In this document: positions 6,048 to 33,145 of the stretch, piece after piece
How the letters are laid out: each line of letters starts with the position of its first letter
Position numbering within the stretch: the first letter of the stretch is position 1
Assembly (NCBI RefSeq): GCF_002082565.1
Contig: NZ_CP020562.1
Coordinates: forward strand, 248,001 to 312,000
Length of the DNA: 64,000 nt
Source: Halomonas sp. GT
GTDB lineage: Bacteria > Pseudomonadota > Gammaproteobacteria > Pseudomonadales > Halomonadaceae
Direction: 5' to 3'
Notes under the pieces: model-generated
Told to the model about the DNA's origin: nothing
The model's input: the letters and a program-made list of their open reading frames with translations, nothing else
Database searches by the model: none
Translations under genes and position numbers: made by a program

Positions 6048-7100
6048 TTAACCATCGGTGCGCTTTCTAGTGATGCTATTAAAAGGATGAAGGGCATCTC
6101 GGGTTACATAGAAGCGCAATGTTTCCCCTTCACGAACGGCTGGCTGGCCCGTGGTGCGAATCACCGTGGGTTGCTCGCTGTCGGCGAGATTAACGTAAAG
6201 ATGGCTTTCCGCGCCTGCCGCTTCAAAGAGCATTAGTGTCGCGTCGATAGCTAGATGGGGTGCCTCGGGCGGGGTGAGGTGCATATCGTCTGGGCGAATG
6301 CCGAGAGTGTCGGTGCCTTCGGGAAGGTGTTCCAGCACGCCGCTGCTTTGAGTACGCAGATAATCCAACGGCAACATGTTCATTGCCGGGGAGCCAATAA
6401 ATTCCGCAACGAACATCGTGGCCGGGCGGGCATAGATCTCCATCGGTGTGCCTACCTGCTCAATTTGCCCGGCATTTAGTACGACCAAGCGGTCTCCCAG
6501 GGTCATTGCTTCCAACTGATCGTGAGTGACATACAGGCTGGTGGTTTTTAGGCGACGTTGTAGCTGTTTAATCTCTACCCGCATTTGTACGCGCAGTTTG
6601 GCGTCTAGGTTGGAAAGCGGTTCGTCAAACAAGAAGGCTGAAGGCTCGCGGACCAGTGCTCGGCCCATCGCTACACGTTGGCGCTGGCCGCCGGAAAGCT
6701 TGCGGGGTTTGCGCTCCAGGAAGTCTTCAATCTCCAGCATCTTGGCCGCTAAACGCACGCGTTTATCAATGTCATCTTTTTTGAAACCTCGGTTCTTTAA
6801 GCCATAAGCGAGGTTGTTGTAGACGGTCATGTGCGGATAAAGCGCGTAGTTTTGGAACACCATGGCGATATCGCGCTCAGCGGGCTCTAGCTTATTCACT
6901 ACCCGATCGCCAATTTTGAGCGTGCCTTCGGTGATGGTTTCAAGACCAGCGACCATCCGTAGCAGGGTCGATTTTCCACAACCGGATGGCCCAACGAGTA
7001 CCACGAACTCACCGTCTTCAATCTGTAAGTCGATCCCTTTGACCGCAGCGACGTTGCCCGCATAGGTTTTTTTTAGCCCTTCCAGGGTAATGCTGGCCAT
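6048..7100 (-). CDS. ugpC: sn-glycerol-3-phosphate ABC transporter ATP-binding protein UgpC
   Basis: A 350-aa ATPase of the MalK/UgpC type that powers import of glycerol-3-phosphate and glycerophosphodiesters. It shows Walker [11 protein letters not shown]-loop [15 protein letters not shown], signature [15 protein letters not shown], Walker [17 protein letters not shown] and the switch His in YVTHDQ. A C-terminal TOBE/OB regulatory domain contains [10 protein letters not shown] and [12 protein letters not shown]. The start at 7100 is chosen because [15 protein letters not shown] matches the family start and GGAGA precedes it; the frame stays open upstream to 7211 but there it lies within ugpE. 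It follows ugpE by 2 nt and is the last gene of the ugp operon. Confidence 0.93.
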
Positions 7101-7102
7101 CG

Positions 7103-7945
7103 TTATTTCTCCGTCTCGGTCAGGCCTTTTACAAACAGGCGTTGCATAAACAAAATCACCAGTACCGGCGGCAGGGCGGCCATTACCACGGCGGCCATAA
7201 TCAAATGCCACTGGGGATTCTCTTCTGAGGTCATGCGCTGAATGCCCATCACAATGGTGTAGTAGTCAGGGTCGGTGGTGATCAGCAGTGGCCACAGGTA
7301 TTGGTTCCAGCCATAAATGAACATGATCACAAACAGCGCCGCGATATTGGTAACGGATAGCGGCATAAGGATGTCTTTGAAGAACTTGAGTGGACCAGCA
7401 CCATCGACTCGGGCCGCTTCCAGCATCTCTTCCGGAATCGTCATAAAGAACTGACGAAATAGGAACGTCGCCGTTGCCGAGGCAATCAGTGGGATTGAGA
7501 GACCCGCGAAGCTGTTCAACATATTGAGATCTGCGACGACCTGAAACGTCGGAATAATGCGTACTTCGACGGGCAGCATCAGCGTGATGAAAATTAGCCA
7601 AAAGAAGAACATCCGAAAACGAAAGCGGAAGTAAACAATCGCAAACGCCGACAGTAGCGAGATCGACAGTTTTCCTATGGTAATCGCCATGGCCATAACA
7701 AAACTGTTCCATAGCATCATGCCTGCTGGTGGGGCACCTGCGTTGGAAACGCCGGACTGCCACATGCGGGTAAAGTTCTCGATACCATGAGCGCCGGGTA
7801 GCATCGGCAGCGTGCCGCGTAGCAAATCGCCCGGTGCCTGGGTAGACGCCACGAGTGCAACGTACACAGGGAACACTACCACTGCGACACCAATCATTAA
7901 CGTCAGGTGAGCAAAAAAATTCGCCCAGGGTCGGTTTTCAACCAT
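7103..7945 (-). CDS. ugpE: sn-glycerol-3-phosphate ABC transporter permease UgpE
   Basis: An inner-membrane permease of 280 aa with about six transmembrane helices and the EAA loop [26 protein letters not shown] that docks the ATPase. The start at 7945 ([14 protein letters not shown]) matches the Escherichia coli UgpE N terminus and has GGGAG upstream. An ATG 18 nt further upstream is open but less likely. It pairs with UgpA to form the channel. It lies 31 nt after ugpA and 2 nt before ugpC. Confidence 0.92.
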
Positions 7946-7976
7946 TGAAAGTCTCCCAAACAATTAGCCAGCGGTA

Positions 7977-8861
7977 TTAGTAGTTCACGCGGCGCTCAAT
8001 AAAGCGGAACTGCACTACCGTAAGTGCGACCACAATGGCCATTAAAATCACTGACTGAGCGGCCGAAGAACCTAAGTTCAAGCCTACGAAGCCATCGGCG
8101 TAGACCTTATAGACCAGTGTGTTGGTCGCCTGAGCAGGGCCGCCTTGGGTAGTCGCGTGAATAATGCCGAATGTATCGAACATGGCGTAAACCACGTTAA
8201 CCACCATCAAGAAGAAGGTCGTTGGCGTCAGCAGCGGGAAAACAATGGTCCAGAAGCGCTTCATGGGGCTTGCGCCGTCAATAGCCGAGGCTTCGATCAG
8301 TGATTGAGGGATCGACTGTAAGCCAGCGAGGAAGAACAGGAAATTATAAGAAATCTGCTTCCAGGCCGCGGCAAAAATCACCAGCATCATGGCGTCTGCG
8401 CCCGAATTACGGTGGTTCCACTGGTAGCCGACCATGTCCAGTATGTAAGGCACAATGCCAATCGACGGGTTGAAGATAAACCACCACAGCACACCGGCAA
8501 TGGCAGGTGCAATTGCATAGGGCCATACCAGCAGCGTGGTATAGGTACTGCGTGAGCGGATCATGCGGTTAACCGTGCTCGCTAACAGCAGCGCAACGGA
8601 CATGGAAAGCAGCGTGGTACCTACCGCAAACACCACTGTCACTGAGAGCGAATTAAGATAAGCGCCATCGCGAAAGAGTCGCGCAAAGTTTTCCAAGCCC
8701 ACAAAGGTGGTGCGTAGCCCAAAGGCGTCTTCCCGCAGCAGTGATTGGTAAAGCGCTTGACCGGCAGGCCAAATAAAGAAAATCAGCGTGACAATGACCT
8801 GAGGAGCCAGCAGGGCGTAGGGCAAAAAACGCCCTGGGAAGGTCATGCGTTTGGTTTGCAT
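7977..8861 (-). CDS. ugpA: sn-glycerol-3-phosphate ABC transporter permease UgpA
   Basis: A 294-aa inner-membrane permease, the size expected for UgpA. It starts with a cytoplasmic stretch and the first helix ([24 protein letters not shown]). It has about six transmembrane segments and the EAA loop ([33 protein letters not shown]). The segment [17 protein letters not shown] is typical of the MalF/UgpA class. It forms the heterodimeric channel with UgpE. It is separated from ugpB by 98 nt that hold a terminator-like hairpin, so its expression is probably lower than that of the binding protein. Confidence 0.92.
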
Positions 8862-8909
8862 AGGCGACGTATCCTGCGTCTATAAACGGCACCAATAAGT
8901 GGGGCACTT

Positions 8910-8944
8910 AAAAAAAGGCTCGCCGCCTGCCAGGGGCAGGCGGC
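8910..8944 (-). terminator. Terminator-like attenuator between ugpB and ugpA
   Basis: On the minus strand a GC-rich 10-bp stem (8944-8935 with 8931-8922, loop 3 nt) is followed by a 7-T run (8916-8910). It lies inside the operon, between the binding-protein gene and the permease genes. Partial termination here would give more UgpB than membrane components, a common arrangement for ABC importers. Confidence 0.7.
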
Positions 8945-8959
8945 GGAGCGGGTGCTTAC

Positions 8960-10285
8960 TTACTGGTTGGCTGATTGGAAGTCGCGTAGCAACTGATTAC
9001 CACGTTCAACCGCTGAATCGGCAGCCTCTTGGCCAGATTTAGCGCCAGTCATCACGGCTTCCATCTCTTCGGAGATGATGTCGCGGATCTGTACAAAGTT
9101 ACCAAACCGCAGGCCCTTTGAGTTTTCAGTCGGTTCGTTTAGTGTCATCTGCTTCAGCGAAATATCGGCACCTGGATTCTCATCGTAGTAGCCCTGCTCT
9201 TTACTTAAGTCCCATGCTGCTTGAGTGATTGGCAGGTAACCGGTTTGCTGGTGCCACTCTGCTTGTACCTCAGGCTGTGAGAGGTACTCAAAGAAGGCGG
9301 CAACGGCTTCATACTCGTCATCGGTATGGCCTTGAAGTGCCCACAGGGTGGCACCGCCAATGATGGAGTTCTGTGGCGCGCCATCTACGTCGTCATAGTA
9401 GGGCTGCATACCGAAACCGACTTCAAAGTCGGAATTAGCAGCGACATCCGCACGTGATGCAGAAGAGCCAAAGAAAATCGCACACTCTTGTGAGTAAAAC
9501 AGCGGTTCAGAGTCTGGCCCGGAACCAGGGCCGCCCCACTTAAAGGCATCCGCATCCTGCCACGTCTTTAAATTATCCCAGTGGCGGGCTACCAGTTCAT
9601 TGTTGAAGTTGAACTCTGTTTCTATCCCGCCAAAACCGTTTTCTAACGTCCCTAGCGGAGAGTTGTGCATGGCAGAGAAGTTTTCCAGCATGACCCAGCT
9701 TGGCCATGAGGTGGTGAAACCACAGTTGGCAGCGCCCGACTCGGTGATTTGAGTTGCGTATTCCGCGACTTCATCCCAGGTTTGTGGCGGCTGTTCAGGG
9801 TCTAAACCTGCTTCCTCAAACACGTCACGGTTGTAATACATAATGGGCGTTGAGGAGTTGAACGGGAACGACAACATGTTGCCGTTTGTGTCGGTGTAGT
9901 AACCGACTACCGCCGGCAGGAAAGCGTCACGATCAAATGCACGGCCATGATCCTCCATGAGCTGATACACCGGATAAATGGCGCCATCAGCATTCATCAT
10001 GGTACCTGTGCCGACTTCGAAGACCTGCAGAATATGAGGCTGCTCGCTTGCACGGAACGCCGCAATGGCACCGGTCATCGTTTCGGTATAATTGCCACGA
10101 TAGCTAGGCGTTACGCGGTAATCATCCTGGGAGGCGTTAAACTCCTCCGTCATTTCTTCAAGGATTTCACCAAGCTGGCCTCCCATGGCGTGCCACCAAG
10201 TCACTTCAGTCGCTGAATGGGCAGAAAGGCTAAACGTGGCGGTCGCCACCCCTAGGGTAAGCGCGTGCAATGTGAAACGAGACAT
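8960..10285 (-). CDS. ugpB: sn-glycerol-3-phosphate ABC transporter substrate-binding protein UgpB
   Basis: A periplasmic binding protein of 441 aa with a signal peptide ending near LSAHSA. The mature start EVTWWHAMGGQLGEILEEM is typical of UgpB, as are MYYNRDVFEEAGLDP, TSWPSWVMLENFSAMHN, GGATLWAL and NEPTENSKGLRFGNFVQIRDI. It captures glycerol-3-phosphate or its diesters and delivers them to UgpAE. It is the first gene of ugpBAEC. Four half-sites at 11-bp pitch upstream (10358-10397) suggest PhoB control, as known for ugp in Escherichia coli. The divergent neighbour is argE. Confidence 0.93.
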   Translation of the reverse strand: MSRFTLHALTLGVATATFSLSAHSATEVTWWHAMGGQLGEILEEMTEEFNASQDDYRVTPSYRGNYTETMTGAIAAFRASEQPHILQVFEVGTGTMMNADGAIYPVYQLMEDHGRAFDRDAFLPAVVGYYTDTNGNMLSFPFNSSTPIMYYNRDVFEEAGLDPEQPPQTWDEVAEYATQITESGAANCGFTTSWPSWVMLENFSAMHNSPLGTLENGFGGIETEFNFNNELVARHWDNLKTWQDADAFKWGGPGSGPDSEPLFYSQECAIFFGSSASRADVAANSDFEVGFGMQPYYDDVDGAPQNSIIGGATLWALQGHTDDEYEAVAAFFEYLSQPEVQAEWHQQTGYLPITQAAWDLSKEQGYYDENPGADISLKQMTLNEPTENSKGLRFGNFVQIRDIISEEMEAVMTGAKSGQEAADSAVERGNQLLRDFQSANQ

Positions 10286-25935: not shown

Positions 25936-26718
25936 ATGACAGATTTACTCTGGTACCACTACCTTCTCATCGGACTTATTTTTGCTTGGAGCGGTTTTGT
26001 TCGCACTAGCCTTGGTTTTGGCGGCGCCGTGCTGGCGCTGCCTTTTCTGCTGCTGGTGGTAAACGAGCCGCTGGTCTTCCTGCCGATTGTGGCGATTCAT
26101 CTGCTGATTTTTTCCAGTTGGATTGCCTGGAACGGTCATCGTCAAGTGCAGAAAGCGGGCGTGGGAAGTACGTCGCCGGAAAGTAATATCGATTGGGGCT
26201 ATTTAACCAAAGCCCTGAAAATTATGATTGTGCCTAAGTTGATCGGGGTGGTGGGGCTGTTAACGCTGCCCACACAGATCATGACCAACATCATTTTCGG
26301 CATTGTGATCATTTATGCCATTGGCTATGTGCTGAATAAGCCGTTTAGAAGCAACAACAAATATGTTGATGTTGTGCTGCTTGCTCTCGGTGGCTATGTC
26401 AGCGGCACCTCATTGATTGGCGCACCGCTAATTGTCGCGGTGTTCGCCACTCACGTCGCTAAAGAGCAGCTGCGCGACACCATGTTCGTGCTCTGGTTTA
26501 TCCTGGTGGTGATCAAAATGGCGTCGTTCATCATCGCCGACGTCGACCTCCAGCTGATTCATCAACTATGGCTACTGCCCTGCGCATTTATCGGTCATTT
26601 GCTAGGCGAAAAAGCCCACCGCTACATGCTGAAAACAGACACCGGGCTGTTCTTCCGCGTGCTGGGAGCCGTACTGATTTTGGTCAGCGTGGTGGGGCTG
26701 ATCCACCCGCCAGGGTAG
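25936..26718 (+). CDS. TauE/SafE family sulfite/anion permease
   Basis: A 260-aa membrane protein with about eight hydrophobic helices. The N-terminal motif GFVRTSLGFGGAVLALPFLL and the repeat YVSGTSLIGAPLIVAVFATH are the duplicated TauE/SafE signatures. The family exports or imports sulfite, sulfoacetate and related anions; the substrate here is unknown. It lies 16 nt after the helicase gene, so it may be co-transcribed, but no functional link is evident. It is the last gene before the accessory island. Confidence 0.85.
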   Translation: MTDLLWYHYLLIGLIFAWSGFVRTSLGFGGAVLALPFLLLVVNEPLVFLPIVAIHLLIFSSWIAWNGHRQVQKAGVGSTSPESNIDWGYLTKALKIMIVPKLIGVVGLLTLPTQIMTNIIFGIVIIYAIGYVLNKPFRSNNKYVDVVLLALGGYVSGTSLIGAPLIVAVFATHVAKEQLRDTMFVLWFILVVIKMASFIIADVDLQLIHQLWLLPCAFIGHLLGEKAHRYMLKTDTGLFFRVLGAVLILVSVVGLIHPPG

Positions 26719-27173
26719 AGAAGGCTTTTACAGTTGTGTGGGCGGCAGACTTTTAAGGCCTAGTGCAGTCGCCCGTTAAATATGCCCAAAGGGCTGCATA
26801 ATGTGAATTATTTTATTGTGTCAATGGTACTAAGCTAGGGGGAAAGGCTAGATGACGTAGCGATCTCTTTCAAAAAGTATAGCGAAAGGCTTACATCATT
26901 AGTTAAGTTAATTTGGCATATTGGATTTGTTATCTGTCAGTCGCGTTGCGTGATCTTTTTGCCAAAACCTCTCAACCATGTGGAGTGGCTGAGGGAGCAC
27001 TAGCCCATGATTATTGCTTCTGTTACCTAGGCAGTAGCTAGCCCGATGATCAGGGCATGGACGGTGCTGGTTAGGGGGTAATGAATGAATCGCTTTAATT
27101 GGCCGTGTTAACCAGCAGGTGGAGTATTTGCTGCAAGCCATATTTTTAAATAACAGAGCACAAGGGATCAAAC
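26719..27173. other. Intergenic region at left edge of accessory island
   Basis: These 455 bp contain no convincing ORF. The sequence becomes more AT-rich after about 26760. The last part holds a plausible promoter region (TTGCTG ... TTTTTAAAT) and a ribosome-binding site (AAGGGA) before the ATG at 27174. I looked for a copy of the tRNA-Pro 3' end that would mark an attL site and did not find one. Confidence 0.5.
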
Positions 27174-28244
27174 ATGGCAGGACAACCATTAGACGGAGTA
27201 CTGAATCAGTCGCAACGTAACTCTCTGGAAATTATCGACTTCATATTTCATATCATTGATCCTGATGCTCCCGGGAAGGTGATAAAGCTCGACGAGGTGC
27301 TGCTACAAGATAAACAAAAAACCTTCTTCCTTGATAGGTTGAGAGACATCGCTGAAGGTACGCAATACATTTTTAATTCTGATGTAGTAAACCTATGTGA
27401 GCAGAGCCATCAGCTTATTGATGACCGAGCTGGTTTCATTGAGCTCTCCTACCTGATGACTCAAGAATTTGCTCGCCTCCACCGTGGGCAAATGTCTGCA
27501 GGCGTATTCATTGTTTCGGTAGTAAGGTACTTGACTAATGCCCATGATTGGCAGCAATTAGCCTTCTTAGTGAAGATGGATCAGCAGGAGTCGTTTGCTT
27601 ACAGCTACAAAGAGATAGACGGTCGTCGAGTTGCTGTTGTAAATGAAATTCCCAATTCTCTCAATGAAAACAAACGCGCGATACAAAAGAGCGCCTTGAT
27701 TGATCCTTCAGCGCAGTTTGCATGGGATGTATTAGCTTTTGATCGAGTTAAAAAACCTGTATTGAGTGACTACTTTCAGTCTTTCCTTGGTGTGATTGAA
27801 CGTCAGCAGGATGCGGTATTAACTCGTACTGCTTATACGGCAGTACGTAAATGGGCCAAGTATGTGCCTCAGGATCAATTGCCTTCGGGCGAAGATGTGA
27901 ACACTTACCGAGAGAGAGCGCTTAATTACCTCAACGACCATGCTACTTTTGATACAGACGCTTTTCTTGACTCGGTTGTGAAAGATGAGAATGCTGAGCG
28001 GAAAGCAGAGCATATGCAGTCTCTTAGAGAGGTCTTAGCTGAAAGTGGTATAGCGGGCCAAACCTTCCGCTCTCGTCCAGACTCACTCCCTAAAAAGCAA
28101 CGTAAGCAGATCTACGAGACATCAGAAGGTGTTACGATCATATATGAAGGTACCCGTGAGGAAGCAGGTATGCATATTGAAAATATGGATAGTGGAAGAA
28201 CACGTATCACAATCGAAACCCACCAGCTGACGCCTAAAGGGTAG
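27174..28244 (+). CDS. Nucleoid-associated protein (NdpA/YejK-like) homologue
   Basis: A 356-aa soluble protein that resembles the 37-kDa nucleoid-associated family (PF04245; YejK/NdpA). Resembling features are the beta-rich N-terminal region with DRLRDIAEG, QEFARLHRGQMSAGVFIVSVVRYL, LAFLVKMD, and the block QKSALIDPSAQFAWDVLAFDR (about 171-191), then DYFQSFLGV. Residues 300-356 form an extra domain (KQIYETSEGVTIIYEGTREEAG) with a phage- or toxin-like feel. It is 5 nt upstream of a membrane-protein gene with which it forms a two-gene unit. DNA binding is expected from the family; the role here is unknown. Family call is moderate. Confidence 0.65.
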   Translation: MAGQPLDGVLNQSQRNSLEIIDFIFHIIDPDAPGKVIKLDEVLLQDKQKTFFLDRLRDIAEGTQYIFNSDVVNLCEQSHQLIDDRAGFIELSYLMTQEFARLHRGQMSAGVFIVSVVRYLTNAHDWQQLAFLVKMDQQESFAYSYKEIDGRRVAVVNEIPNSLNENKRAIQKSALIDPSAQFAWDVLAFDRVKKPVLSDYFQSFLGVIERQQDAVLTRTAYTAVRKWAKYVPQDQLPSGEDVNTYRERALNYLNDHATFDTDAFLDSVVKDENAERKAEHMQSLREVLAESGIAGQTFRSRPDSLPKKQRKQIYETSEGVTIIYEGTREEAGMHIENMDSGRTRITIETHQLTPKG

Positions 28245-28249
28245 CCGTA

Positions 28250-29695
28250 ATGCCCTCTGTTGTAGATCTACTACAGACTATTGATGACCTTCGCCCTCAT
28301 ATCTCGCAAGAAATGGATGAAGGGTTACGCTTGATCATGGATGGTAGGGAGCTGAACGGAGCAGTCCGAGAGCGGCTTCTAAAAGTATTTAGTCTCATTG
28401 ATCAATTAGGCATTGAAGCACCAATGCTAAAAATCGTCAGTACTAACGACACAATTGATGCAGAAGACCTGTCTACGGCTGAGTTTGATGGCGACAGTTG
28501 GCGCTTGATTCTGGGTAAAACGCCTATCGCAGAACATCTGCGAGCAAGAGAAGATGAGATCACATTGGTGTTCTTCAGTGTAAAGGGCTTTCATCAGTGG
28601 CTTGAAAGCTGGGATCCTTGCTTGTACCCGACAGGCAATACTCCTGATTTTGCCAAACCAGTGACAATTCGAGTTCAAGGGCTTTCGCAAAGCGTTGGAG
28701 GGCCTCTTCTTTGGGTAATGCCTCCAGAGGCATTGCCTCCTATTGTCGAGCCAGTCGATTTACCGAGCTCTGAGGAAGTTCATCGATTAATTCATACTAA
28801 CGCTACGCGAGGGTTACGTGTTTGTCCTAAGGGCTATGCACTAACCTGGGGAAATCTTGATAACACTGAGATAGAACCTCTGGTTAAACTAAGTTCAATT
28901 GTGCTGTCTGTTTGCCTTGTTCAAGAGCTACGGTGCATAGAAGGCCGTTACGAAGTTACCTTGAAAGGTACCAAGCGTATTTCTATGGCGCTATTCGATA
29001 CCAACCAACATGCTAGCCCTAAAACACTAAAGCTTTTGATTGAAACTGTACTTTGGGTATATGAAGAGAGGCCTGAGACACGTCTCGGCTTGGTAATGGA
29101 TCGCTTGTCAATCGATATTGAGAAAGAGCAGCCGTTGCTTTCGGGTATGGAGAATCATCTCGAAGCTGCGCTCGATCAAGCACGTGATAGCTATGCCTTC
29201 GTGATACTTGAGCGCAAAGATGCTTATCACAAAGAAGTTCGTGAGCTTATGAAAGACATGAAATCTCACGCCGACCTATACGCGGCTAAGGTACGGGAAC
29301 TTGTCAATTCACTAACCCGTGATGCGCTGGGTATTTTGTTTTTTGTTGCTTTCTCATTCATTGCTAAATTTGACAAGCAAAATTTTACAGCTCTTTTAGA
29401 AAGTACTGAGTTGGCATTCTTGGTTAAAGTGTTGTCTTACTACTTGGTGCTATCATTTGTCCTACAGTTAGCAGCCCACTGGCGGGATGTTTCACTTGCT
29501 GATCAAGAAAGTGAGGCATGGCTCGATGTGTTGCAGCACTACTCATCGCAAGCCGATAAGAAAAGTCGCTTTCTTCAGCCTATTAATAAAAGGCGAACGA
29601 CTTTTTACTGGGCTTTGTTTATTGCAGGTGGAGCCTACTTTTTATTGGCTTTTATAACATGGAATTTACCGAGTCTAATTGGCTCTTGGGTTTAG
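28250..29695 (+). CDS. Hypothetical protein with three C-terminal membrane helices
   Basis: No family recognised in this 481-aa protein. Residues 1-300 are soluble alpha/beta (for example DEITLVFFSVKGFHQWLE, RGLRVCPKGYALTWGNLD). A charged helical stretch at about 305-355 leads to three hydrophobic helices near 357-372, 388-410 and 450-472. So it is a membrane-anchored protein with a large cytoplasmic N-terminal part. It starts 5 nt after the nucleoid-associated-protein homologue, implying one transcript. A DNA-sensing partner plus a membrane effector is a layout seen in phage-defence modules, but that is analogy only. Confidence 0.75.
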   Translation: MPSVVDLLQTIDDLRPHISQEMDEGLRLIMDGRELNGAVRERLLKVFSLIDQLGIEAPMLKIVSTNDTIDAEDLSTAEFDGDSWRLILGKTPIAEHLRAREDEITLVFFSVKGFHQWLESWDPCLYPTGNTPDFAKPVTIRVQGLSQSVGGPLLWVMPPEALPPIVEPVDLPSSEEVHRLIHTNATRGLRVCPKGYALTWGNLDNTEIEPLVKLSSIVLSVCLVQELRCIEGRYEVTLKGTKRISMALFDTNQHASPKTLKLLIETVLWVYEERPETRLGLVMDRLSIDIEKEQPLLSGMENHLEAALDQARDSYAFVILERKDAYHKEVRELMKDMKSHADLYAAKVRELVNSLTRDALGILFFVAFSFIAKFDKQNFTALLESTELAFLVKVLSYYLVLSFVLQLAAHWRDVSLADQESEAWLDVLQHYSSQADKKSRFLQPINKRRTTFYWALFIAGGAYFLLAFITWNLPSLIGSWV

Positions 29696-30012
29696 ATGAG
29701 CTGTTATATAAGTATGGAAGGTTCTCGCACTTAGTGGAGGGCTTTATAGAGGGTGGCTGGGCGCGGAATTATCGTGTGACAGAAACAATTTCCGAGAAAT
29801 ACAATATAGGGTAATCCCCCTTATCAGCGGTTAAGCTATACCCGGATTCGCTAGGACGCGGAGAAAATCAAGGTTTTGCTACGCGCAGGTTCGAGCGTTA
29901 ACGCGGCTATGGTTGGAGTAGCGCCAAGAAGTTTACGGTTGCAGTTCTTGGTAAGTTGCACTACCGAAACCAAACACAAAAAGACCATAAGTCATCATAA
30001 GTAAGGATCGTT
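29696..30012. other. Non-coding gap in accessory island
   Basis: These 317 bp hold no ORF of useful length. A short GGTTCGAGC stretch near 29888 recalls a tRNA T-loop, but the rest of a tRNA is absent. The final 25 bp supply a ribosome-binding site (TAAGGAT) for the gene at 30013. Confidence 0.5.
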
Positions 30013-30378
30013 ATGAGAAGCGAATTCTGGGTAAAGGTTTTGGGCGCGCTTATGGTAGCCACAGGTATGGGGATTGGCAAGTTGGTCGATGACCCTGCTT
30101 TTCATATCCGTGTTGTTCAAAGTGGCAGTCATGAAACTGTTTTCATTCTGCTTGCGTTAGTGATTGGTTTTACTTTCAAAGATGGTAACGATAGCGATTC
30201 GGTTAGCGCGCTTGTGTGGGCCGTCTTCATGGCCGTGATGGGCCTTTTTATGAATGGGCTTAATGATTTAGAAGATTCATACGTACAGTATGTTGGGTTC
30301 ATTTTGTACGGTGGTTTTACAATCTCATTGATGGGCACGCTGGTGTACCTAATGAGGGCTATTAAGTTCCGCCAGTGA
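30013..30378 (+). CDS. Small multi-pass membrane protein, 121 aa
   Basis: No family recognised. The sequence has an N-terminal hydrophobic helix (KVLGALMVATGMGIGKLV) and three further helices (ETVFILLALVIGFTF, SALVWAVFMAVMGLFMNGL, YVGFILYGGFTISLMGTLVYLM), so about four membrane passes. TAAGGA precedes the start. The stop codon (30376-30378) directly abuts the portal-protein fragment, so the junction between cargo and phage sequence falls at or near 30370. Accessory function unknown. Confidence 0.7.
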   Translation: MRSEFWVKVLGALMVATGMGIGKLVDDPAFHIRVVQSGSHETVFILLALVIGFTFKDGNDSDSVSALVWAVFMAVMGLFMNGLNDLEDSYVQYVGFILYGGFTISLMGTLVYLMRAIKFRQ

Positions 30379-30834
30379 AGCTGGGTGCTCCGCTACTACT
30401 TCAACGGCAGCCACGCGGGCTTCATCATGTACGTCAACGACCCGGCCCACGATCAAAAAGACATCGACGACATGCGCAAGGCGCTTAAACAGAGCAAAGG
30501 GCCGGGCAACTTCCGCAACCTGTTCCTTTACTCGCCCAGGGGGAAAAAGGACGGGGTGCAGATCATCCCGGTGTCAGAAGTCGCGGCCAAAGATGAGTTC
30601 TACAACATCAAAAACATCACCCGCGACGACCAAGTAGCCGGGCACCGTATCCCACCTCAGTTGATGGGCGTGGTACCTCAAAACGCCGCCGGATTTGGCG
30701 ATGCCGAAAAAGCCGCCAAGGTGTATGTGGGCAACGAGCTGGAGCCACTCCAGGCCACCTTCAAAGAGATCAACGAGTTCGTGGGGGAAGAGGTGGTGAG
30801 GTTCGATCCGTATTTACTGGATCTTGAGGCATAA
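30379..30834 (+). pseudogene. Truncated P2-like phage portal protein (C-terminal part)
   Basis: About 150 residues match the C-terminal part of the P2 gpQ-type portal protein: RYYFNGSHAGFIMYVNDPAH, DMRKALKQSKGPGNFRNLFLY, KKDGVQIIPVSEVAAKDEF, and HRIPPQLMGVVPQNAAGFG. An intact gpQ is about 340 aa, so the N-terminal half including the start is missing. The fragment begins immediately after the stop of the 121-aa membrane protein. Codon use is GC-rich, unlike the cargo genes before it. A GTG at 30385 could only give a non-functional fragment. Confidence 0.85.
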
Positions 30835-30859
30835 AAAAAGCGCCTGGTTACCCAGGCGC
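30833..30859 (-). terminator. Minus-strand terminator-like hairpin after portal fragment
   Basis: GCGCCTGG (30840-30847) pairs with CCAGGCGC (30852-30859) around a 4-nt loop. The A run at 30833-30839 is a T run on the minus strand, so it would stop transcription coming from the right. Confidence 0.65.
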
Positions 30860-30937
30860 ACCGCTCGTTTCATCCTTGAAAAAAAGGAGCTTACGGCCCC
30901 GCAAGCGATAAAAGAACTATACCCTAAAACTGTATGT

Positions 30938-31706
30938 ATGAACAGGTATTCAAGGATGATGAATCGACCGATTTTGCCCTGGATGGGCGGCAAGCGACGG
31001 GTGGCTAAACAGATCCTGCCACTCTTCAAACCCCACACCGCTTATGTAGAACCTTTCTGTGGTGGGGCGGCTATTTTCTTCATGAAGGAGCCAAGCAAAG
31101 TAGAGGTGATCAACGATGCGCATGGCGAGTTGGTGAGCCTCTATCGTGTGGTGAAGCATCACCCAGATGAGCTGGTAAAGCAGTTCCGTTGGGGGCTGGT
31201 CAGCAGGGAAGAGTACCTCACGCAAAAAGAGATCGACCCACGCCACCTGACGGATATTCAGCGGGCAGCACGTTTCTTCTATCTGCAGAAGCTAGCGTTC
31301 GGTGGCAAAGTCAGCGGTCAGACGTTTGGCACCTCTGCAGTATCACCGCCGCGCATGAACCTGCTGCGCATTGAGGAAGATCTTAGCGATGCCCACCTAC
31401 GGTTATCCAGGGCGGTGGTCGAGCATTTGGATTGGGCGGAATGCATCCGGCGTTATGATCGGGAAGGCACGCTATTCTATCTCGACCCGCCTTATTGGAG
31501 TACTGCTGGATACGGCTGCGACTTCTCGCTGGAAGAGTACTACCGGATGGGGGAGAGGGCAGGGGCAGTTTGTAATCAGCGTCAACGACACGCCAGAGAT
31601 GCGCGATGCCTTCAAAGGGTTAACCCTGCAAACAACTTTAATTAGGTATACTGTGGGGCAGCAAGCGACCGAGCCACGCGGTGAATTGATCATCACCAAC
31701 CGCTAA
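30938..31706 (+). pseudogene. Phage-type DNA adenine methylase (D12 class), frameshifted
   Basis: A Dam-like N6-adenine methyltransferase of the D12 class. The first frame gives MNRPILPWMGGKRRVAKQI, the AdoMet-binding VEPFCGGAAIFF, NDAHGELVSLYR and the catalytic DPPYW (in FYLDPPYW). It then runs out of homology after EEYYRMGE near 31556. The matching C-terminal part, QFVISVNDTPEMRDAFKG to GELIITNR, continues in the next frame and ends at 31706. Compared with typical phage enzymes the junction is short by about 11 nt, so a small deletion probably broke the gene. ATG 30956 or 30959 are alternative starts. Confidence 0.8.
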
Positions 31707-31787
31707 ACCTCTAGCCAGCTATCTAACCAACGCCAAGCCGCTCCGAAAGGGGCGGCTTATTCACTGTCTTTTGGATGGAAGCTAAAA

Positions 31788-32399
31788 ATGGTTGAAGTCT
31801 TACTTACTTTAATTTCTAGGCTTTTGAACAGAAAGCCAAAGCTCGACGAAGTGATTGAAGCGTTGGGTGTTTATCAAAATGATCGGAGAAAACTATGTTC
31901 TCAATTGCGGCTGGAGGATGCTTTTTACAACGCATTCAAAAAGAGAGCATCAGCTAAGCTGATTGAGAAAATAGCTTCTATTAATTGGGGGCCAAGGGAG
32001 TCATTGATGATTTTTGGTCAAGCCGGACCTGCCGTCATATGTGATTTCACAACCCACAAAATGGAAATTAAAAGAAGAGTAAAATTGCCAGAGAAATGGC
32101 GTATGGTTATAGAGTTTTTAAGCGGTGTTTTATTTCTTTTAGTAGGTGTAACGCTATTTTTTTTGGGTACATACACTTTGTACCTGCTAGTAGGGCACAT
32201 TTACTTTAATGATATCAAAACGCTCTATGACACAGGGTTAAAAGGATTTGCTCTACTTTTCCAGTCAAGCTTAATGGGTTTCGGCGCGACAATTTTTGGA
32301 GCTATGTTCACTCACCTTGGCTGGAGTTTGATCGCCAGCTTAGAAAGCGATACTAAGATCCTCGAGTTAGAGAGGATGCTTAACCAGACTCCAGACTAG
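31788..32399 (+). CDS. Hypothetical membrane protein, 203 aa
   Basis: No family recognised. The N-terminal 100 residues are soluble and basic (LLNRKPKLDEVIEALGVYQNDRRKL, YNAFKKRASAKLIEKIASI). Two hydrophobic segments follow, EFLSGVLFLLVGVTLFFLGTYTLYLL and FALLFQSSLMGFGATIFGAMF. The coding sequence is AT-rich like the other cargo genes and unlike the phage fragments beside it. It may be an independent acquisition in the island. Confidence 0.65.
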   Translation: MVEVLLTLISRLLNRKPKLDEVIEALGVYQNDRRKLCSQLRLEDAFYNAFKKRASAKLIEKIASINWGPRESLMIFGQAGPAVICDFTTHKMEIKRRVKLPEKWRMVIEFLSGVLFLLVGVTLFFLGTYTLYLLVGHIYFNDIKTLYDTGLKGFALLFQSSLMGFGATIFGAMFTHLGWSLIASLESDTKILELERMLNQTPD

Positions 32400-32564
32400 A
32401 TCTTCATTACCCACGCCGCGCCATCGTCACCCCGCCCGCGCGCTAAATGTAGTGGTTTTTATGCACCATTGCGGCAGTCCCTTAAGCCGCGCCACTGCTG
32501 GGCGGGAAGGCGGTTCTAAGGCGTGTATTTTTTATGCGTTTTCATGAGCGTTTATGCACTTTAT

Positions 32565-32828
32565 TTAGAGTGGTGGGGAAAAGTGTGAGGCGCGTAGTTC
32601 CATAATGGCTTTTCGATGAGCTTCCCAGGTTTGCTCATCCATTAGGTGGTCAATAACGTGGGGCATCTCGGCGTATGTCAGCCAGAGTTCAGTTGTGTCT
32701 GTGGGAGTCATGCCTACCTTCGCGCCTTGGTGCTGCAGGCGGATATCAAAAACGATAGTGGGCTCGCCTTTCGGCGTGTAGCGGATTGAGTAGGTGGATC
32801 GCGTTATCTTTTGGGGCGCTCTTTTCAT
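32565..32828 (-). CDS. Hypothetical protein, 87 aa, at island right end
   Basis: No family recognised. The protein reads MKRAPQKITRSTYSIRY, then strands (EPTIVFDIRLQHQGAKVG) and a helical C terminus (TYAEMPHVIDHLMDEQTWEAHRKAIMEL). It is soluble. It lies between the cargo genes and the tRNA-Pro attachment region, where short phage genes are common. The ATG has no strong ribosome-binding site. Confidence 0.5.
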   Translation of the reverse strand: MKRAPQKITRSTYSIRYTPKGEPTIVFDIRLQHQGAKVGMTPTDTTELWLTYAEMPHVIDHLMDEQTWEAHRKAIMELRASHFSPPL

Positions 32829-32857
32829 TATTCACGTCCCCTTCAAGATTTTAAACT

Positions 32858-32887
32858 GCTACCTATTTGCTACCTAAAACCGCTACC
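32858..32887 (+). repeat. Three GCTACC direct repeats beside tRNA-Pro
   Basis: GCTACC occurs at 32858-32863, 32869-32874 and 32882-32887, spaced 11 and 13 bp apart, about 60 bp from the 3' end of the tRNA. Short direct repeats at this position can be integrase or excisionase arm sites of the former prophage; that is inference. Confidence 0.45.
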
Positions 32888-32890
32888 AAC

Positions 32891-32932
32891 AAAAAACGGC
32901 CACTTGCTATATTAGCTAAGTGGCCGTTTTTT
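32891..32932 (-). terminator. Terminator of tRNA-Pro
   Basis: AAAAAACGGCCACTT (32891-32905) and its complement (32918-32932) form a 15-bp stem with a 12-nt loop. It lies 10 nt past the CCA end of the tRNA on the minus strand and has T runs in both directions. Confidence 0.85.
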
Positions 32933-32942
32933 CTGGAATTCT

Positions 32943-33019
32943 TGGTCGGAATAGCAGGATTCGAACCTACGACCTCTGCCTCCCGAAGGCAGCGCTCTAC
33001 CAAGCTGAGCTATATTCCG
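32943..33019 (-). tRNA. tRNA-Pro (anticodon CGG)
   Basis: A 77-nt tRNA including an encoded CCA. The acceptor stem pairs CGGAATA (5') with TATTCCG (3') followed by A73-CCA. The D arm includes AGCTCAGCTTGGTAGAGC, the anticodon stem-loop is CTGCC-TTCGGGA-GGCAG with anticodon CGG, and the T arm is GTAGGTTCGAATCCTGC. It reads CCG proline codons. The accessory island adjoins its 3' end, consistent with use as an attB site. Confidence 0.95.
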
Positions 33020-33145
33020 AACGTTGTTGCAACAATGTTGCTGAAAGCGTGCTGAGCAGTGCTTAACAACGGAGCGAATCATACGCAGGCGAAGGTTTTT
33101 TTTCAAGTCCCTTTTTTCGCGCTGGGTTGCTTTGTTGCGCAGACT

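Follow-up and report, generated by a model that had tools for sequence, protein, structure and literature searches.

A mobile two-gene unit joining a YejK-like protein to a predicted membrane protein in Halomonas is probably a little-described anti-phage defence system

Proteins of the YejK family are nucleoid-associated DNA binders. Their domain has been validated in Escherichia coli anti-phage defence in the 2026 Science report on DefensePredictor (PMC13092281). On the element PAPI-1, another study treats the YejK-family protein NdpA2 as a nucleoid-associated regulator, which together with TprA, a ribbon-helix-helix DNA-binding protein, raises the expression of transfer genes (PMC8565334). 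In the Kiwa system, KwaA is reported to sense infection at the membrane, and KwaB to bind the injected DNA without cutting it (PMC12904381). Here, we analysed a 64,000-nucleotide stretch of Halomonas sp. GT (NZ_CP020562.1, positions 248,001 to 312,000; the window), which carries a pair of adjacent genes encoding a 356-aa YejK-like protein and a 481-aa protein with probable membrane helices, and compared this pair with the systems above.

The two open reading frames (ORFs; 27174-28244 and 28250-29695) are both intact and 5 nt apart on one strand, in a prophage remnant beside a tRNA, here tRNA-Pro, as the initial annotation had described. The first protein matches Pfam PF04245 (NA37) with 60.7 bits, for a curated cut-off of 24.6, over profile positions 1-317 of 325, and NA37 is the sole Pfam family found at E ≤ 1. 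Profile comparison by hhalign with 24 canonical and other NA37 sequences gave a probability of 95.6 (E 1.2e-8, 299 columns), and structure comparison recovered the YejK fold over the whole length. The YejK/NdpA likeness noticed earlier is thereby upheld, and the additional C-terminal domain proposed with it is not, NA37 covering the entire protein. The housekeeping YejK copy of the same genome scores 257.3 bits, versus 60.8 bits for the 356-aa paralogue, which is, judged by sequence, a divergent paralogue distinct from the housekeeping protein.

The 481-aa protein had been noted as belonging to no known family, and indeed no match was found in Pfam or PADLOC. It consists of an N-terminal alpha/beta part up to about residue 290, a long helix (296-371) and two further helices (386-428 and 434-471); its best-conserved stretch, residues 321-360, has the first probable membrane helix at its end. 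Both genes are under purifying selection, with dN 0.069 and dS 1.27 (dN/dS ~0.05) for the first and dN 0.121 and dS 1.78 (dN/dS ~0.07) for the second, each compared with the related locus L004. A promoter scan returned three promoter-like sites, for 4.9 expected.

The pair is a real two-gene mobile unit, kept together over large sequence distances. Protein searches at E ≤ 1e-3 gave 162 relatives of the 481-aa protein and 155 of the NA37 protein, and 52 of the 120 clusters listed per search agree exactly in the size of their longest contig, for a mean of 0.94 expected when sizes are jittered by 10%. Using a profile of the 481-aa partner, we collected 29 genome loci from Gamma- and Betaproteobacteria and Bacteroidota; in 26 of them, an intact NA37 gene directly precedes the partner gene, and 28 in all have an NA37 gene upstream. 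The two additional cases are L005, where the NA37 gene is broken into two ORFs, and L012, where an insertion of ~3.4 kb (6507-9931) parts the two genes; the remaining locus, L030, starts at a contig end that cuts off the region upstream of the partner gene. The unit is rare: it occurs in 2 of 151 genomes of the family, and among 398 genomes of the phylum an NA37-subfamily profile retrieved four (the own genome included) and the partner profile two. All four nevertheless carry a relative of the partner directly downstream of the NA37 gene, two of these relatives being too divergent for the first profile and found with a widened one. With so narrow an occurrence, no sign was found that the 481-aa protein is a housekeeping protein, and the two genes do recur together; neither objection foreseen in the initial annotation applies.

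The coupling extends to plasmids and phages. Both genes are present on seven of eight inspected plasmid regions (L002, L003, L036, L113, L115, L127 and L128), a count made without the matched records NZ_CP032685, NZ_CP090357, NZ_CP045243 and NZ_CP116348, and conjugative plasmids are among the carriers. The eighth region, L126, bears at 9106-10128 a truncated relative of the 481-aa protein beside IS26, without an NA37 partner; the plasmid, conjugative and from Klebsiella variicola, carries aminoglycoside-resistance genes as well. On viral contigs, the partner and NA37 profiles, run separately, retrieved the identical five contigs, with both genes in each; a query with the 481-aa protein alone had given no match among phage records and no confirmed match among viral contigs. 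Divergent pairs, reached through weaker NA37 matches, were found on a Pantoea plasmid behind a tyrosine recombinase (partner profile E 1.4e-33) and on a Rhizobium plasmid (E 1.8e-17), and others in the temperate Thiobacimonas phage vB_ThpS-P1, adjoining a Cro/CI-type gene (E 1.1e-22), on a Methylocystis plasmid (L128) and on the IncC plasmid pKAZ5. Apart from L030, neither gene was seen intact alone among the inspected loci, since the only copy without its mate is the truncated partner fragment of L126. A search of 5,426 complete E. coli genomes with five pairs of the NA37 and 481-aa families gave no match at the sensitivity of blastn.

We then consider the genes surrounding the pair, taking those within four genes of it in plasmid regions L002 and L003 and in the 29 genome loci, which amounts to 233 genes. 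Of these, 227 were scanned in two sets of 116 and 111, six genes being set aside from L027, which nearly duplicates L025; the ORFs of the L012 insertion were part of the scan. At E ≤ 1e-10, 57 PADLOC models were matched among the 116 genes and 141 among the 111, versus 4 among 120 control genes, these tallies counting models, several of which can match one protein, and the control consisting of random chromosomal genes from 20 fixed places in 10 genomes, not matched for islands. When flanking proteins were scanned singly, 9 of 28 had a match at E ≤ 1e-5 and 19 had none. The neighbours assigned to individual loci are the candidate PDC-S50 (L002), a type III methyltransferase (L010), QatA (L021), a weak mads_8 match (L018), SIR2 with HerA (L024), a retron III-A PRTase (L029) and CARF with an effector (L030). 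At model level, with no locus assigned, the flank tallies further include QatB, QatC, IetA, DrmD and retron reverse transcriptases. In addition, four neighbours of the pair on the Methylocystis plasmid are annotated as anti-phage, a type I R domain stands beside the pair in G561 (L151), and the gene directly upstream of the pair in L002 encodes a DUF6988 protein, a domain newly implicated in defence in the DefensePredictor paper (PMC13092281). The expectation that the pair would recur in or near prophages and defence islands thus holds, with direct coupling in 26 of 29 genome loci and further copies on plasmids and viral contigs.

From its mobility and its company, we consider it likely that the pair is a horizontally moving defence system of some kind. 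Its plan resembles that of Kiwa in being a tight two-gene unit of one membrane protein and one DNA-associated protein that occurs in defence islands and prophages, and a Kiwa copy with a broken KwaB gene even lies at the same tRNA-Pro in the congener G010. The two differ in gene order, the putative DNA-binding gene coming first and the membrane gene second in our pair, and in the membrane protein: KwaA of G010 has 193 aa, the protein of our pair 481 aa, including a large soluble part. As a candidate identity by sequence, Kiwa is ruled out by the lack of any KwaA or KwaB profile match: KwaB (PF16162) was not found in the 356-aa protein in Pfam at E ≤ 1 or in PADLOC and gave 0.1-0.3% in profile comparison, and KwaA was not found in the 481-aa protein by PADLOC at E ≤ 1 and gave 0.3% by hhalign against eight KwaA sequences. 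In fold, the 356-aa protein resembles KwaB at background level.

With YejK/NdpA itself, the 356-aa protein shares the family, as Pfam, profile comparison and structure all show for its whole length, but it has always been seen with a membrane partner, while the housekeeping type is a lone chromosomal gene. The E. coli system of DefensePredictor is alike in having a YejK domain in an anti-phage context, and the legend to the figure showing that system also defines labels for TM (transmembrane) and coiled-coil segments; it is not visibly this pair (PMC13092281). The pair had initially been proposed as an undescribed system. We found no description of it in openly licensed PubMed Central papers (bioRxiv not covered), among which only PMC13092281 combines "YejK" and "anti-phage"; the claim of novelty is nonetheless weakened, because that same paper already validates the YejK domain in E. 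coli anti-phage defence.

How might the pair act? By analogy, we give about an even chance to a membrane-anchored DNA-binding anti-phage (or anti-mobile-DNA) system working like Kiwa. In the steps that we infer, the 481-aa protein would be embedded in the inner membrane, exposing both its large N-terminal part and its long helix to the cytoplasm, and would hold a dimer of the YejK-like protein at the membrane. The entry of phage or other DNA, or a disturbance of the membrane at the injection site, would be the trigger, upon which the YejK-like protein would bind the entering DNA and block its replication or transcription. That the YejK-like protein has its own membrane partner points to an encounter with DNA at the membrane, and a tethered DNA trap is favoured because Kiwa is reported to act at the membrane in that way. 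A broader proposal, which we put forward tentatively and do not hold as the likelier case, is that the pair constitutes its own class of immunity, distinct from the tested E. coli system, with a membrane-tethered DNA binder of the YejK/NA37 fold. In this view, an accessory nucleoid protein and its dedicated membrane partner would repeatedly have been recruited, on chromosomes, plasmids and phages alike, to catch incoming DNA at the inner membrane, reaching the Kiwa plan independently.

Other readings of the same two proteins have to be weighed. The pair could act by abortive infection, the YejK-like protein sensing phage DNA or a phage-altered nucleoid and then activating its membrane partner to open or disrupt the inner membrane so that the cell stops; we regard this as rather unlikely. 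It is improbable that the pair serves the housekeeping of mobile elements, as a membrane-tethered YejK-like silencer or anti-silencer of the element's own genes. The precedent is NdpA2-TprA, likewise with a YejK-family gene on a mobile element and shown to raise transfer-gene expression, and conjugative plasmids and phages do carry our pair; however, the role described there is transfer-gene control, and the partner is a ribbon-helix-helix protein instead of a membrane protein (PMC8565334). Moreover, the Halomonas pair is kept under purifying selection in an element stripped of nearly all its own genes, and elsewhere the pair has diverse defence genes as neighbours. A toxin-antitoxin or superinfection-exclusion pair mainly protecting its carrier would fit two tightly spaced, mobile genes and the temperate-phage copy next to a Cro/CI-type regulator, but is highly improbable: the pair is conserved in many hosts, whether on chromosomes, plasmids or phages, and the sole one-gene copy is the truncated membrane-protein fragment beside IS26 on the Klebsiella plasmid.

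Returning to the Halomonas locus (Table 1), the defence candidate lies in a prophage remnant between the TauE gene (25936-26718) and tRNA-Pro(CGG)-ispB. We compared this site in 36 tRNA-Pro regions from 41 genomes of the genus (the own genome, G771 with the gene in two pieces, G033, G772 and G781 being omitted), using stretches of 19.9 kb each (9.8 kb for L086), in which larger islands are not fully covered. The site is empty in three of the 36, with a TauE-tRNA gap of 66 nt in L083 and L086 and a helicase-tRNA gap of 83 nt in L085, and neither gene of the pair was matched in any of these stretches (tblastn, E ≤ 1e-6). The TauE-tRNA-Pro interval (window 26719-32942; L077-L112) is an integration hotspot in the genus: it measures 66 nt where empty and exceeds 17 kb at the other extreme, and in L099 a 47-nt partial tRNA copy delimits a 17-kb element on its far side.

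G010 has a repeat of the first 48 nt of the tRNA behind TauE, with the complete tRNA 40.2 kb further on, the element between them containing an integrase, a replication nickase, a tape measure, a terminase and a portal gene. Window positions 30390-33020 match the right end of this element at 85.7%; what remains in the window is therefore the right-hand end of a related prophage, in which the pair stands before the truncated portal gene. From the nickase and portal, we infer that the prophage is P2-like. A defence hotspot of P2-like prophages has been described between the replication gene gpA and the portal gene gpQ (PMC9122126). Our pair lies ~0.7 kb before the truncated portal gene, the genes to the left of which are all lost, and the gene order differs in the G010 prophage, where the Kiwa genes (L075 13836-15380), for KwaA and for KwaB, the latter broken up between two ORFs, adjoin a DNA methyltransferase. 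Loci L004-L008 carry the pair without any of the window's flanks, and four of these five have a tRNA-Ala/tRNA-Glu cluster ~5-6 kb downstream.

The small hydrophobic ORF following the pair is probably not part of the unit, because it is absent from all other loci examined. Upstream of the pair, L004 and L005 share a stretch of ~220 nt (8530-8790), partly kept in the window and also present in the G010 prophage (L075 17800-18000), beyond the Kiwa genes. The L005 copy used as a query gave one to three matches each in 15 of the 41 genus genomes (own included), one of them, in G766, inside the tRNA-Pro region; such a stretch could represent either a small mobile repeat or the border of a cargo region. 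An Rfam scan of 26600-33100 returned only the tRNA and one match below the gathering score.

Table 1. Features of the gene pair and of the surrounding prophage remnant (window coordinates)
Feature	Position	Strand	Remarks
Upstream non-coding stretch, low-copy repeat	26859..26995	+	similar stretches precede the pair in two further genomes of the Halomonas group; another lies in the G010 prophage
NA37/YejK-like protein gene, first of the pair	27174..28244	+	356 aa, intact ORF, Pfam NA37 over whole length
481-aa protein gene, second of the pair, no named family	28250..29695	+	intact ORF
Probable membrane helix 1, residues 354-372	29309..29365	+	from hydropathy
Probable membrane helix 2, residues 387-405	29408..29464	+	from hydropathy
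Probable membrane helix 3, residues 451-469	29600..29656	+	from hydropathy
121-aa hydrophobic ORF right after the pair	30013..30378	+	no relative in any other locus examined, no PHROG
Phage portal protein, C-terminal part only (remnant)	30385..30834	+	similarity to G010 prophage from 30390
Prophage Dam-type DNA methyltransferase	30824..31645	+	profile matches, congener comparison
203-aa prophage-end ORF	31788..32399	+	also at right end of G010 prophage; no PHROG
tRNA-Pro(CGG), integration site, right end	32943..33019	-	comparison with congeners

Overall, the pair is probably a little-described anti-phage defence system, small, intact and compact, and as such directly testable. It also singles out a family of partner proteins (~480 aa) that has no entry in Pfam and whose members annotation pipelines now label as hypothetical. 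If membrane-tethered DNA binding is indeed its mode of action, it would be a second, unrelated two-gene defence design that pairs a membrane protein with a DNA binder that does not cut, YejK-fold nucleoid-associated proteins would gain a second role as immune DNA binders, and there would be a reason why accessory YejK paralogues travel on mobile elements.
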